A stretch of DNA of 64,000 bases from the NCBI GenBank assembly GCA_003212335.1, contig QCQA01000001.1, forward strand, positions 124,001 through 188,000, written 5' to 3'. A program made the position numbers and the translations under genes. The notes beneath the pieces were generated by a model. That model was not told the DNA's origin and ran no database searches. It saw nothing but the letters and a program-made list of their open reading frames with translations. Below are positions 56,072 to 61,859 of this stretch, piece after piece (positions within the stretch are counted from its first letter, which is position 1; each line of letters begins with the position of its first letter). This DNA comes from SAR86 cluster bacterium AG-447-A08. GTDB taxonomy: Bacteria > Pseudomonadota > Gammaproteobacteria > Magnimaribacterales > Magnimaribacteraceae.

Positions 56072-56881
56072 ATGAATGGAGCGATTGAAAAAAGTTTAAA
56101 TGATAAAGGTGTTTTAACACTTAAATTAAATAGACCGGAAGTTTTAAATGCGATGAATGCTGATTTAATTCTTGGTCTTCTTGATTGCATGAATGATGCC
56201 AAGTCAGATAAACAAGTGAGAGCAATAATCATAACTGGCAGCGGCCGAGGTTTTTGCTCTGGGGCGGACTTAGTCGATGGAGGTTGGCCAAAAACAAAGG
56301 GGCTTTCTTCGGGTGAGGCTACCTTTACTAATATGGAAAATGCCTTCAATCCCTTAGTCAAAGCAATAACTCAATCAAATAAACCAGTAATTACTGCGAT
56401 TAATGGAATAGCTGCAGGTGGAGGAGTTGGATTAGCTCTTTGTGGAGATATAGTAATTGCCTCAACATCAGCAAAATTCAAACTAGTCTTTGGACCCAAC
56501 TTAGGTATCATCTCTGACGTAGGTGCGTCTTGGTTTGTTCCAAACTTAATAGGTAGAGCAAGAGCAAATGGGATGGGTCTACTAGGTGATGACCTGTCAG
56601 CAGAATTAGCCAAGGAATGGGGTCTTATTTGGGATTGTGTACCTGATGATGAACTCATTAGTAGGGCTAATGAGATTGCTGAAAGAATAGCCGATGGACC
56701 AATTGAAGGGCTGAAAGCTATTGTAAAAGCGCATGATAAAGCTTTGTCTGGTACCTTGAGTGAACAATTAGATTATGAAAAAGAAACTCAAAGGGTAAGA
56801 ACAGATTCTAAGGAATTTAAAGAGGGTGTTTCAGCTTTTGTAGAGAAAAGGAAACCTAATTTTAGAGACCTAGATCAATAA
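56072..56881 (+). CDS. Enoyl-CoA hydratase/isomerase family protein
   Basis: A 269-residue crotonase-fold protein. Oxyanion-hole motifs are SGRGFCSGADL and NGIAAGGGVGLAL, and residues SDVGASW in the third region are where the catalytic acids lie. Sequence pattern alone cannot separate hydratase from isomerase. AGGAG precedes the ATG closely, and the stop overlaps convergent cia30-like by seven bases. Confidence 0.88.
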   Translation: MNGAIEKSLNDKGVLTLKLNRPEVLNAMNADLILGLLDCMNDAKSDKQVRAIIITGSGRGFCSGADLVDGGWPKTKGLSSGEATFTNMENAFNPLVKAITQSNKPVITAINGIAAGGGVGLALCGDIVIASTSAKFKLVFGPNLGIISDVGASWFVPNLIGRARANGMGLLGDDLSAELAKEWGLIWDCVPDDELISRANEIAERIADGPIEGLKAIVKAHDKALSGTLSEQLDYEKETQRVRTDSKEFKEGVSAFVEKRKPNFRDLDQ

Positions 56882-57435
56882 AGCTCTAAACCAGCAACAT
56901 CAATATCTGCATAAAAATCTTTTCCATAAGCTACTATTCCTATGCTTTTAATGCTTTCTATATCAAATTCCTTTGGAAGAAATCTACTAAATCTTCCATC
57001 ACTTTTTTTGAACGAAGAAAAAGGTAGTTCGATCCATTGCCATTTCTCAGTAGTATTGAAAGACGAACCATAATATAGCCATGGCAATCTAGTTTTAGTA
57101 GTTCTGATAAAAAGATAATATTCCTCTCCATTACCTCTAGTCTTAATTTTGAGGCCTTTATAATCTTTGTCTTCAATTTCTACTTCGGCTCTGAATTGAA
57201 TAAATCCTCCATTATTCTCAGTACTGACGTTACCTTCCATATGATAGAAAGACAGACCATCTTCTTCTTTTTCCAAAAAATTTACTTCAGAAACTCCTCC
57301 CATCACCTGATCAGAAAACGGTATCCATTTGACTCTTTGGTTGTCTAAATTATCAATTGCTTGTGCCATGACGTTTGAAGAAAGATTTAATATTATGATA
57401 CCCAAAAGGGTCTTAAAAAGTGTCGTTAAATTCAT
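56875..57435 (-). CDS. CIA30-domain secreted protein
   Basis: A 186-residue protein with a signal peptide (1-25, ending NVMAQA) and a CIA30 beta-sandwich domain, seen in FSDQVMGGVSEV, GLKIKTRGNGEEYYLFIRT and WQWIELPFSSFKK. Mitochondrial CIA30 assists complex I assembly; the bacterial secreted forms have no known role and may bind carbohydrate. It is divergent from the PQQ dehydrogenase gene. Confidence 0.83.
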   Translation of the reverse strand: MNLTTLFKTLLGIIILNLSSNVMAQAIDNLDNQRVKWIPFSDQVMGGVSEVNFLEKEEDGLSFYHMEGNVSTENNGGFIQFRAEVEIEDKDYKGLKIKTRGNGEEYYLFIRTTKTRLPWLYYGSSFNTTEKWQWIELPFSSFKKSDGRFSRFLPKEFDIESIKSIGIVAYGKDFYADIDVAGLELY

Positions 57436-57509
57436 ACTAATATTATGAGTAAGTTATATTCCAAAAGTCAAAAAAAAGAGTTAGAGTAAAAGTAAATATG
57501 GAGATGAAT

Positions 57510-59720
57510 ATGAAAAATAAATTCAACTTTTTGGGGCTCATATTAATTACTTTCCTTGTGAGCTGCAGTACCTCTGAGGAAGAGCAAATTAAAGAAGAAT
57601 TAACTACGTTAGGTTCAACACAAATAGGTTTAATTGATGACCAAAGAATATTGGATGCAGAATCTGAACCTGGAAATTGGCTAGCTCACGGAAGAACATA
57701 TGAAGAGCGCAGATTTTCCCCATTGACAGGCATAAATAAAGAAAATGTATCTGAGTTAGGCCTTGTATGGTCTAAAGATATGGGAACAAACAGAGCATTA
57801 GAGGCTACCCCTATTGTAGTTGATGGAATTATGTTCTTCACAAGTACTTGGAGTAGAGTTTACGCAGTTGATGCTTTGACTGGAGAAACAATTTGGAAAT
57901 TTGATCCTAAAGTACCTGGAGAATGGGCCAGGAAAGCTTGTTGCGATATTGTAAATAGAGGAGTTGCTGTTTATAACGGCAAAGTTTACTCAGCAAGCTT
58001 AGATGGAAGGCTGTTTGCAATAAATGCTGAAACTGGAGAGTTGGTTTGGGAAGTTGATACTATAATTGATCGAACAAGATCTTATACAATCACAGGTGCA
58101 CCCAGGGTAGCAAAAGGTAAAGTTTATATAGGTAACGGTGGTGCGGAATACGGCGTAAGAGGATATGTTACTGCTTACGATACCGAAAATGGTGATCAAG
58201 TATGGCGTTTCTTTACTGTTCCTGGAAATCCAGACCTAGGGTTTGAAGATCCTGCTATGGAAATGGCTGCCAAAACATGGAAAGGAACTAACTGGTGGGA
58301 ATTTGGTGGTGGTGGAACTGTCTGGAACTCCATAGTCTATGATCCAGATTTCAATAATGTATATCTAGGCGTTGGAAATGGATCTCCTTGGACAAGAGAT
58401 ATCAGATCTCCAGGTGGTGGTGATAACCTTTTCCTATCCTCCATTGTTGCTGTAGATGCTGATACTGGTGTTTATAAATGGCATTATCAAACCACACCTG
58501 AAGATAATTGGGACTATACCGCCGTTCAAGATATGGCTCTAGCAGATATGGAAATTGATGGAGAAATGAAAAAAGTCCTTCTTCAAGCTCCAAAAAATGG
58601 TTTCTTTTATGTTATTGACCGTCAAGACGGAAAAGTTCTAAGAGCTCATCCTTTTGCTGCTGTCACATGGGCTACTCATGTAGATCTAGAAACAGGAAGG
58701 CCAGTTGAGAACCCGGCTGTTGACTATACTGATAATGGAGCTTGGGTTTTACCTGGTCCACTAGGAGCCCACAACTGGCAAGCCATGTCTATAGATCTTG
58801 AAGCTGGATTGGCTTATATACCTACGCAAGAAAATCCTTTTTTCTATGCAATACAAGAAGATTATAAAAAAACCGGAGTATTTAAATGGACTCCTGGTCA
58901 ATGGAATATGGGTATTGAAATGAGTTCTTTAGCTCAAAATATTCTTAATAATCTAGAATCTCAGCCAAAACCAGGAGGTTTTTTGAAAGCTTTTGATCCA
59001 CTCACGGGTGAAACAAAATGGTCAGTACCAATTCCTCATTACTGGAATGGAGGCGTTCTAGGCACAGCTGGGGGGCTCGTATTCCAAGGAGATGCCCTTG
59101 GCATGTTCTCAGCTTATGATAAGGATACTGGAGAGAGATTATGGGAATTTAATACCTATACCTCAATGTTAGCTCCACCTATAACATTCGAAATAGATGG
59201 AGAACAGTATGTTTCTATCCTGACAGGTTCTGGAGGAGGTGATTTATTTGGCGGAGAGCCTTTGCCTCCAATAGAAATCCAAGCTTCATTAACTTACAAC
59301 AATTTTGGTAGATTATTAGTTTTTAAGTTGGGCGGTAAAGAGACGTTACCAATTCCTGATGTTAGAGACAAAACAATACCTGAGCAAAAACTTGTACAGG
59401 TTAGTATTGATCAATTGCAAGATGGAGAAAGCAAATACAATCAAAACTGTGCTGTTTGCCATGGATTTGTTGTCAAGTCTGCAGGTGGCATACCCGACTT
59501 ACGTAAAATGACAGCAGGAACGCATGATGCATTTAACCAAATTGTACTAGAAGGTCTTTTGGCTAGTAATGGAATGGCTTCCTTTTCAGATGTACTCTCT
59601 GAACAAGAAGTTGAAAACATACATCATTATGTCAGAGCCAGAGCGCACGAGGATAGAGAAGTTGCCTTAGGAAATATGGAAGCTCCTCAGTTTACTTGGT
59701 TTGGTCAAGAGGAAGAATAG
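57510..59720 (+). CDS. PQQ-dependent dehydrogenase lipoprotein with C-terminal cytochrome c
   Basis: Periplasmic quinoprotein that oxidises alcohols or sugars and passes electrons to its own haem. Signal peptide and lipobox FLVSC (C19) precede an eight-bladed propeller. The PQQ-site vicinal cysteines are in RKACCDIVNRG, and the W-box-like repeats (EAGLAYIPTQENPFF and others) are visible. The C-terminal domain has the haem motif CAVCH. ATG 57510 is preferred because GGAG lies six bases ahead; ATGs at 57498 and 57504 are alternatives. Length is 736 residues. Confidence 0.92.
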   Translation: MKNKFNFLGLILITFLVSCSTSEEEQIKEELTTLGSTQIGLIDDQRILDAESEPGNWLAHGRTYEERRFSPLTGINKENVSELGLVWSKDMGTNRALEATPIVVDGIMFFTSTWSRVYAVDALTGETIWKFDPKVPGEWARKACCDIVNRGVAVYNGKVYSASLDGRLFAINAETGELVWEVDTIIDRTRSYTITGAPRVAKGKVYIGNGGAEYGVRGYVTAYDTENGDQVWRFFTVPGNPDLGFEDPAMEMAAKTWKGTNWWEFGGGGTVWNSIVYDPDFNNVYLGVGNGSPWTRDIRSPGGGDNLFLSSIVAVDADTGVYKWHYQTTPEDNWDYTAVQDMALADMEIDGEMKKVLLQAPKNGFFYVIDRQDGKVLRAHPFAAVTWATHVDLETGRPVENPAVDYTDNGAWVLPGPLGAHNWQAMSIDLEAGLAYIPTQENPFFYAIQEDYKKTGVFKWTPGQWNMGIEMSSLAQNILNNLESQPKPGGFLKAFDPLTGETKWSVPIPHYWNGGVLGTAGGLVFQGDALGMFSAYDKDTGERLWEFNTYTSMLAPPITFEIDGEQYVSILTGSGGGDLFGGEPLPPIEIQASLTYNNFGRLLVFKLGGKETLPIPDVRDKTIPEQKLVQVSIDQLQDGESKYNQNCAVCHGFVVKSAGGIPDLRKMTAGTHDAFNQIVLEGLLASNGMASFSDVLSEQEVENIHHYVRARAHEDREVALGNMEAPQFTWFGQEEE

Positions 59721-59721
59721 A

Positions 59722-60282
59722 TTACTGATCTAAGATCAGTGTTTTGGGGGGAAGTTCAGGCGGAGGCACTTCAACAAATTCGAACGAAGGCCTTCCTTGT
59801 TCTGGCTCCCCTTCCGTTACATCATAAGGGGTAGATTTCTCACCTTTGTTATCCTTATTTAGGACTCCATAAGTTTTCTTTCCATTCAATCTTTCGCCTT
59901 CTTGCAATTTATGCAGTGCTTCTTGAGCAATTCTATGGTTTTCCTTATTCCACTGTAAATTGAATGCTCTGGGGTCTCCTATTGGCTTTTTGTACTCATC
60001 TATTTCTTTTATCCAGAGGAACAATTCTCCTTCATTGCTTTTACTTTTATTAGGCTCTTGAATAACTACCCATAGAATATTGAAATCATCAGGTAAATCC
60101 TCCGATGTTGGCCATCCTAAGACCCCGACATAACCCTTCCAGCTGTAAATATAGAATAAAGAAACAGCAAAAATTGATATTAGTTTTACTTTCTTAGTGA
60201 AATTTGTATAAAAACAAAAAACTAAGAGAAGTGCTGCAATTACAGCATAAGAAATGCTTAAAATTAATCTCTCCTCTAGCAT
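59722..60282 (-). CDS. Unrecognised membrane protein of the ExbB/ExbD-like operon
   Basis: A 186-residue protein I do not recognise. Two hydrophobic segments (about residues 6-28 and 32-48) are followed by a hydrophilic domain with FNILWVVIQEPNK and GELFLWIKEID, then an acidic, proline-rich tail ending EVPPPELPPKTLILDQ. It is third in an operon after a channel-like and an ExbD-like gene, with a one-base gap to the latter, and ends two bases from convergent PQQ dehydrogenase. A subunit of the same complex is the simplest reading. Confidence 0.65.
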   Translation of the reverse strand: MLEERLILSISYAVIAALLLVFCFYTNFTKKVKLISIFAVSLFYIYSWKGYVGVLGWPTSEDLPDDFNILWVVIQEPNKSKSNEGELFLWIKEIDEYKKPIGDPRAFNLQWNKENHRIAQEALHKLQEGERLNGKKTYGVLNKDNKGEKSTPYDVTEGEPEQGRPSFEFVEVPPPELPPKTLILDQ

Positions 60283-60283
60283 G

Positions 60284-60898
60284 CTATTTTCTTCCTAAAG
60301 CCTTTGTGAGTAATCTTTTCGGTAATTGATTAAGGTTAGAGATTTCTTTAGCTCCATCTACTGAAAACCTAAGTGCTGTTATTTCATCACCCACTCCATT
60401 CAAGAAATGTTGACCATAGTATATTAGCTCAACAGTTGGGTTTAGTTTTTCTACTTTTACAGTTACTGGTAAAGGTTCTTTGTAGTTTGATTTATAGTGC
60501 AATAAATTAATTACATACTCGCCTGTTTGAAGCCCTCTAACTGTAACAGTCTCTTGGTTTATAGGATTTGATACAACTTCTCCTTCCGTCTTTATAGAAT
60601 CAGCTAAATTGCCTCTATCATCTCGGTCTAAATGCATCAAACCAGTGTCTCTATTGTGATACCAGACAAGGCCCCCTTGAGGATCTTCAACTACTGCATC
60701 AACATCATCTGGATGTTCATCAGGCCATTGAACAGAAATTAAGACTTCTGCTTTAGTATTAATATTCCCAGATTCTTCAGAATTATTGATAAGCATGAAA
60801 GCTATAGCAAACATGAATGCAAAACCAAGAAGAGCATTAAAAAGGAGATCAGTGAATACATCTTGCTCTTCTGATTTAAGCAAAGTTTTATGCTTCAT
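60284..60898 (-). CDS. ExbD/MotB-like protein with an unusual periplasmic domain
   Basis: A 204-residue single-span protein. The segment VFTDLLFNALLGFAFMFAIA (14-33) carries D17 at the cytoplasmic end, as in ExbD, TolR and MotB. The periplasmic domain (from residue 45) has VQWPDEHPDDVDAVVEDPQG and NRDTGLMHLDRDDRGN, resembling the acidic DPxG/LDxD pattern of DUF2135-type beta-sandwich domains, then LQTGEYVINLLHY. The start overlaps the ExbB-like stop by four bases. I know of no named function for this combination. Confidence 0.72.
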   Translation of the reverse strand: MKHKTLLKSEEQDVFTDLLFNALLGFAFMFAIAFMLINNSEESGNINTKAEVLISVQWPDEHPDDVDAVVEDPQGGLVWYHNRDTGLMHLDRDDRGNLADSIKTEGEVVSNPINQETVTVRGLQTGEYVINLLHYKSNYKEPLPVTVKVEKLNPTVELIYYGQHFLNGVGDEITALRFSVDGAKEISNLNQLPKRLLTKALGRK

Positions 60899-61500
60899 TT
60901 ATACTTGGAGCTAATGTGATTGAGAGTCTGGCTCAAACTTGTATCAAGAATAAAATACTGAAATTTGAGTATCATGCTAGTCAATAGGCCAGTCAAAGTT
61001 GTGTACAAAGCAACAGCCATTCCACCACTCATAGTGGATAATAATTTTTGGAGAATCTGAGGATCAAAATCCTTTATTTCTCCAATAGGGAGTAGCATGA
61101 GGATAAAACCTATGACAGTACCTGTTAGCCCTAATTTGAGCAATACATCTATAGCTAAATAACCCAAGGAGTGCCTGTTACTGAGCTCATCCTCAACAAG
61201 AGAAATGTCTCTTTCTTCTTGAGATTTATTTTTTTCTAAAAGCAATCTTCCAATTAAAGTCTTGCTAGAAGGATCATCTAAACTAGATATTTCTTTATCT
61301 AAAGAAATGGCAATATAGAACCAATGAATGGTAGACAAAAAATAGATAGCAAGAATTAGTAACGAAATCTTGCTTCTGTCTGACTCTATTATCAAAGCAA
61401 TCAGGTCTAGTTGATACAATAAATAGAAAGAGAAAAGTATCAGAGTAAGTACTAGCGATGCTTTTAGTAACAAGTAATTTGGCCTTTTAGAAATTAACAT
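60895..61500 (-). CDS. MotA/TolQ/ExbB-like proton channel protein
   Basis: A 201-residue inner-membrane protein with four predicted segments (about residues 11-29, 45-65, 115-138 and 158-180). The channel signature is in the last two: LKLGLTGTVIGFILML and MSGGMAVALYTTLTGLL, with threonines at the positions that line the ExbB/TolQ proton path. It lacks a long cytoplasmic loop. It is the first gene of the three-gene operon, starting two bases after the GFA gene's stop. Confidence 0.85.
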   Translation of the reverse strand: MLISKRPNYLLLKASLVLTLILFSFYLLYQLDLIALIIESDRSKISLLILAIYFLSTIHWFYIAISLDKEISSLDDPSSKTLIGRLLLEKNKSQEERDISLVEDELSNRHSLGYLAIDVLLKLGLTGTVIGFILMLLPIGEIKDFDPQILQKLLSTMSGGMAVALYTTLTGLLTSMILKFQYFILDTSLSQTLNHISSKYK

Positions 61501-61502
61501 AA

Positions 61503-61859
61503 TTAATCGTGACTAGCTCCATCTATCAGGTTTATCTTTGTTTCGGTTGGTATCAATATATCATCAACACACATTATATTAATACTTATCTGAGATGGGT
61601 CCCTTCTTCGAACATGATGGGTATAAACACCACAAATATTACAAAAAAAGTGTTTAGCGATTTTTTTATTCCACTGATAAATTTGCAAATTATTTTGTCC
61701 ACTTTGAAGTACAAAGTTTTCTTTACTTATCGGCTTCATAATAATTGCTTTCTTTAAACACAAAGTGCAGTTGCACTCGTAAAGCCCATCCAATATTTGA
61801 TCAGTAAAAAAACTAAATCTGACTTCTTTACAATGGCAAGATCCGAAATACTCCGTCAT
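61503..61859 (-). CDS. GFA/CENP-V family zinc protein
   Basis: A 118-residue protein with the glutathione-dependent formaldehyde-activating (GFA) fold: CHC (residues 8-10), CNCTLC and CNICGV provide the zinc cysteines. Many members are of unknown activity; only some react with S-hydroxymethyl-glutathione. It overlaps the SDR gene by one base. Confidence 0.85.
   Translation of the reverse strand: MTEYFGSCHCKEVRFSFFTDQILDGLYECNCTLCLKKAIIMKPISKENFVLQSGQNNLQIYQWNKKIAKHFFCNICGVYTHHVRRRDPSQISINIMCVDDILIPTETKINLIDGASHD

Follow-up and report, generated by a model that had tools for sequence, protein, structure and literature searches.

The ExbB/MotA motor superfamily has few known functions, and according to a 2025 survey its non-flagellar relatives differ in structure and carry extra domains to which no function is assigned (PMC12505986). 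The ExbB/ExbD-TonB and TolQ/TolR-TolA systems combine a family channel, a partner with a single Asp-bearing helix and a third membrane protein encoded alongside. We analysed a window of 64,000 nucleotides from the SAR86 cluster bacterium AG-447-A08 (contig QCQA01000001.1, positions 124,001 to 188,000), in which three genes, here called P1, P2 and P3, share this composition. The trio differs from both systems in that P2 has no ExbD/TolR domain match and P3 has two helices and no TonB/TolA match, and the genome's other ExbB/TolQ-family genes lie apart from it. Similar to MotA of the MotAB stator, P1 seemingly has four helices, and its top-scoring profile match is a MotA chain, but the trio lacks the torque-generating cytoplasmic domain and the OmpA-like domain, and no flagellar genes were seen nearby. 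ZorAB of Zorya belongs to the same motor superfamily, whereas the trio shows no match to ZorB, ZorC or ZorD, no long tail and another periplasmic domain. Zorya, Ton, Tol and flagellar identities were tried and each failed the domain tests (Pfam, NCBIfam, PADLOC). Within the limited literature searched, we found no paper describing the trio.

Gene organization of the locus

All three genes are encoded on the minus strand. P1 (60895–61500) encodes the MotA/TolQ/ExbB-family channel subunit of 201 aa, P2 (60284–60898) an ExbD/MotB-like subunit of 204 aa that carries D17 and a putative periplasmic beta-sandwich, and P3 (59722–60282) a protein of 186 aa with two N-terminal helices, a small beta domain and a proline-rich C-terminus. 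The reading frames of P1 and P2 overlap by four bases and P3 begins one base past P2, which confirms the original prediction of three genes that overlap or lie one base apart. The boundary which that prediction drew at 59722 does not hold. A type II quinohemoprotein alcohol dehydrogenase dependent on PQQ (57498–59720, plus strand) converges on the trio, with its stop at 59720 one base from the end of P3 at 59722. Because this dehydrogenase is a conserved neighbour, the conserved unit extends past the trio. Two bases upstream of P1 lies a GFA-like gene (61503–61859, minus strand, assigned by eye), which we place outside the conserved unit because its position is kept only in part of SAR86. Three further MotA_ExbB genes are found elsewhere in the same SAR86 genome, and the trio is therefore not its usual Ton or Tol set. 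A secreted-looking gene beside the dehydrogenase (56875–57435, CIA30-like by eye) is kept in much of SAR86.

Domain structure of P1, P2 and P3

P1 scores above the Pfam cut-off for MotA_ExbB (E 2e-9, 37.7 bits, cut-off 22.9), in line with its first description as a MotA/TolQ/ExbB-type channel protein. Among solved chains, a ZorA-like protein and TolQ join the top-ranking MotA as best profile matches. The tolQ model TIGR02796 gives only 11.1 bits against a cut-off of 221, and PADLOC matches P1 weakly to ZorA (8.8e-5). Residues G124, G127, T168 and G171 are invariant in the alignment and the GLxGTxxG motif is kept. In its layout P1 resembles MotA, apparently with four helices and a short cytoplasmic part. 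Phage forms are shorter, with lengths of 113–148 aa.

Conservation within the trio is highest for P2. Its D17 is located in a single N-terminal membrane helix, and the Asp is present in 52 of 52 aligned rows, as expected from the proposal that it occupies the ExbD/MotB proton-site position. The proposed acidic, beta-sandwich-like domain is likewise borne out: the DPxG and LDRDDRG motifs are present, and the AF2 model (mean pLDDT 83.7) contains a beta-sandwich at residues ~50–190. D65, D67, D93, D94 and E116 are invariant in 53/53 aligned rows, and E172 never varies in the same alignment. Pfam and NCBIfam contain no reliable family for P2, with no match up to an E-value of 5. PDB profile searches gave nothing usable for P2 or P3, and Foldseek alone matched neither model at an E-value of 0.001 or lower. 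With VIA-align, the P2 model aligns with four TerD-type chains at an rmsd of 3.6–3.9 over 130–139 residues, with Z scores of 11.5 for 3ibz, 10.4 for 2qng, 10.0 for 2qz7 and 9.3 for the calcium-binding 2kxt. Among non-TerD chains, a radial-spoke chain reaches a Z score of 9.8 and the next one 6.2.

Sequence profiles tie the P2 domain more closely to DUF2135/YfaP (PF09906) than to TerD (PF02342). HHalign gives a P-value of 1.2e-7 for DUF2135 (probability 94%, score 53.8; 40 shuffles scored at most 20.7), compared to 0.0068 for the TerD profile (score 24.2, shuffles up to 20.4). The P2 domain shares the W..DxDLxV.PxG..Y.NR and GxYxV motifs with DUF2135/YfaP, but it falls below the Pfam model, sits on an ExbD-like membrane anchor and differs in the second acidic loop region. 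With TerD it shares the overall beta-sandwich fold, but sequence similarity is weak and without a Pfam match, and the P2 domain is membrane-anchored and presumably periplasmic. We conclude that the periplasmic domain of P2 is distantly related to the DUF2135/YfaP group and has a TerD-like fold. The module had been called unfamiliar, which stands in so far as Pfam and NCBIfam hold no family for it and is to be corrected for its distant kinship with DUF2135/YfaP. Calcium binding by this domain is a plausible prediction, since its model adopts the fold of calcium-binding TerD proteins and its Asp pairs are invariant. P2 has no Pfam match to the OmpA-like peptidoglycan-binding domain. Neither P2 nor P3 matches models for TonB, TolA or OmpA-like domains, P2 has no ExbD-family match and neither tonB nor tolA is part of the unit, in agreement with the original prediction of a complex free of TonB, TolA and an OmpA-like domain. 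The P2 domain weakly resembles part of phrog_1735, a large family of phage proteins with no assigned function (E 1.5e-4).

In the AF2 model of P3 (mean pLDDT 75.4), helices at residues 2–25 and 30–55 are followed by a small beta-beta-beta-alpha-beta-beta domain. The proline-rich C-terminal tail, FEFxxVPPPxLPxK, is conserved across the cellular family, so that the earlier description of a two-span protein with a proline-rich tail agrees with both model and alignment. The loop between the two helices is positive, from which we infer that the beta domain is probably periplasmic. Its fold has no confident structural match, and Pfam and NCBIfam returned no reliable family and no TonB model for P3. 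In some loci of the dnaE context described below (L200, L239, L240 and L241), P3 is seemingly duplicated in tandem.

Distribution of the trio

Relatives of P2 were gathered at 80 loci of genome contigs, and tblastn recovered trio genes in GC-rich loci that simple ORF picking had missed. Wherever the contig extends far enough, P1 and P3 flank P2 in unchanged order at essentially all of the 80 loci, one exception being an orphan P2 without P1 or P3 at locus L113. The carriers are SAR86 and other gammaproteobacteria, Myxococcota, Bradyrhizobium-like genomes of 6–9 Mb, Azospirillum, on plasmids, phages of Rhizobium and Sinorhizobium, and IMG/VR contigs. The latter were found with Azospirillum and phage queries, while the SAR86 P2 found no relatives in IMG/VR. 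In phage 16-3, p038, p040 and p042 are the counterparts of the trio by position, helices and motifs. Among 274 gammaproteobacterial genomes, the P2 profile matches 32, in one case through a weak domain match, and it matches 19 of 398 genomes across the phylum, a few of them weakly and with the Bradyrhizobium-like group included. Nearly all genomes with a P2 match in these separately drawn samples have the complete trio. Since the order recurs in ~80 loci and in separately drawn genomes, the pattern is not due to chance. The expectation that the three genes co-occur across lineages, with the third conserved beside the pair, is thereby confirmed for bacteria and phages.

The trio is found in several contexts. 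In the compact block it adjoins a dehydrogenase, as in the window, and in other lineages it lies inside larger PQQ-dehydrogenase clusters. A third context holds the trio beside genes for dnaE, YkuD (L,D-transpeptidase), DUF302 and FHA-VWA, without PQQ genes. Genomes of ~1 Mb (G201 and G313; loci L195 and L245) also keep the trio, with no PQQ dehydrogenase over the cut-off.

Link with PQQ dehydrogenases

The convergent neighbour matches 1kv9 over residues 46–720 (phmmer 1e-211) and consists of a PQQ domain and a haem c domain with one CxxCH site. An N-terminal lipobox (LVSC) predicts a lipoprotein here and in many SAR86 relatives; the lipobox was not found in the dehydrogenases of many other lineages. 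A D-Y-D motif marks lanthanide-type PQQ enzymes. This type was rejected for the dehydrogenases, whose motif is W-D-Y/F-T rather than D-Y-D, and W-D-Y-T in the window.

At 67 of the 80 loci, a convergent PQQ alcohol dehydrogenase lies next to the trio or nearly so; these 67 loci are not independent because adjacency within the compact clade may have been inherited or co-transferred as one block. The arrangement extends to Myxococcota and to loci with otherwise different flanks. Of 61 genomes in the SAR86 order, 29 carry the trio, and the same 29 carry a dehydrogenase of at least 70% identity. Among the 274 gammaproteobacteria, TIGR03075 exceeds its cut-off in 21 of the 31 genomes with the trio and in 25 of the remaining 243, an association with an odds ratio of 18 and a Fisher p of 8e-12 in a test that ignores relatedness. 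Where the trio lies inside PQQ-dehydrogenase clusters, gene order differs and the neighbours include TIGR03075, the SoxYZ-like carrier TIGR04557, the MoxJ-like TIGR03871, PedF (TIGR04494), the zinc hydrolase TIGR04558 and a DUF3108-like gene. The five TIGR families are those of exa/ped-type quinoprotein alcohol dehydrogenase clusters, for which we found no paper that names an ExbBD-like trio. In the P2 tree, a single clade contains the compact type, with the Bradyrhizobium-like type as its neighbour; members of the PQQ-cluster type are spread over several branches. The PQQ alcohol dehydrogenase is likely a client of the trio in the SAR86 lineage, and the best-supported one.

Discussion

The family of P1, the conserved Asp, the domain relationship of P2, the conserved trio and the link with PQQ dehydrogenases come from sequence comparison, and on this ground the assignment of the trio as a motor is well supported. 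We tentatively favour an envelope motor of the 5:2 superfamily, powered by protons, which in this lineage would load or supply cofactor or metal for the PQQ dehydrogenase. P1 would form an ion channel ring in the inner membrane, P2 would contribute the membrane Asp and place a DUF2135/TerD-like, probably calcium-binding domain in the periplasm, and P3 would add a second periplasmic domain. The proton motive force would drive ion flow and thereby generate force, with the work probably delivered on the periplasmic side because P1 has little or no cytoplasmic domain. The motor could then power the loading of the dehydrogenase with its cofactor or metal (PQQ, Ca2+) or the supply of either, or help in some other way to assemble the enzyme at the envelope.

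The role of the trio goes beyond PQQ. Phages, the dnaE context and the ~1 Mb genomes with no PQQ dehydrogenase over the cut-off keep the trio, which shows a broader core activity. The same contexts, including the proximity to L,D-transpeptidase, DUF302 and FHA-VWA genes, would fit a general envelope motor for cell-wall or outer-membrane maintenance or envelope protein assembly, with PQQ dehydrogenases as one of several clients or passengers. We consider this possible but on balance somewhat unlikely, given that co-occurrence with PQQ dehydrogenases is strong and linkage is found on separate branches of the P2 tree.

A second question is where the cofactor comes from. PqqE is over the cut-off in none of 13 SAR86 genomes and in none of the other compact-block genomes tested, and PqqC is absent from 27/27 compact-block genomes tested. 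Most genomes are incomplete, so that a single absence means little and the agreement across genomes constitutes the evidence. The cofactor is thus presumably external in compact-block genomes. PQQ import is common in Gram-negative bacteria and proceeds in E. coli via the TonB-dependent PqqU (PMC12124388). The trio could accordingly work in the manner of the Ton system and energise specifically the import of PQQ, or of an alcohol that serves as substrate, through the outer membrane; P3 with its conserved proline-rich end would then stand in for TonB. SAR86 has only partial, generic matches to E. coli PqqU, which could fit such a system but carries little weight because TonB-dependent receptors are diverse. 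Yet HTCC2143, with a trio that has no adjacent dehydrogenase, contains both PqqE and PqqC, as do all five genomes of the PQQ-cluster or Bradyrhizobium type in which the two were sought. Since PQQ-making genomes carry it too, import of PQQ cannot be all that the trio does. Its conserved neighbours include no receptor gene, P3 has no resemblance to a TonB domain and other ExbB-type genes are available in the genome, all of which makes uptake improbable as its dedicated role.

Phage copies and the weak PADLOC match of P1 to ZorA would be in accordance with an anti-phage membrane system akin to Zorya, in which chromosomal copies serve defence and phage copies superinfection exclusion. We regard this as very unlikely, as PADLOC matches neither P2 nor P3, the OmpA-like domain and the long cytoplasmic tail of P1 are missing and chromosomal contexts are stable across whole families. 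Least credible is hitch-hiking, in which many genomes would have inherited a single transferred block and the linkage would mean nothing for function: the compact type occurs in only one clade of the P2 tree and the dehydrogenase is convergent and not co-transcribed with the trio, but the PQQ-cluster type with its different gene order lies on several other branches and the genome-level association goes beyond adjacency.

The favoured reading of a motor that serves the PQQ dehydrogenase can be extended to a new class of proton-driven envelope motors, which would carry a calcium-binding DUF2135/TerD-like domain on the ExbD-like subunit and power dehydrogenase maturation or cofactor supply, also in bacteria unable to make PQQ, and which tailed phages would have taken over for an envelope task of their own. 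In this full form we rate the proposal as rather unlikely. With the trio, the superfamily would gain a branch whose periplasmic domain is of another kind, which has a third conserved subunit and of which phages carry a minimal form. Because the trio is tied to PQQ-dependent alcohol oxidation in ocean bacteria that are abundant and lack PQQ synthesis, it becomes testable how such cells acquire the cofactor and load the enzyme with it. As a further observation on the phage loci, a trypsin-like protease gene lies directly upstream of the trio in phage 16-3 and its relatives, annotated at L115, L130 and L132 and recognised by sequence at L123.
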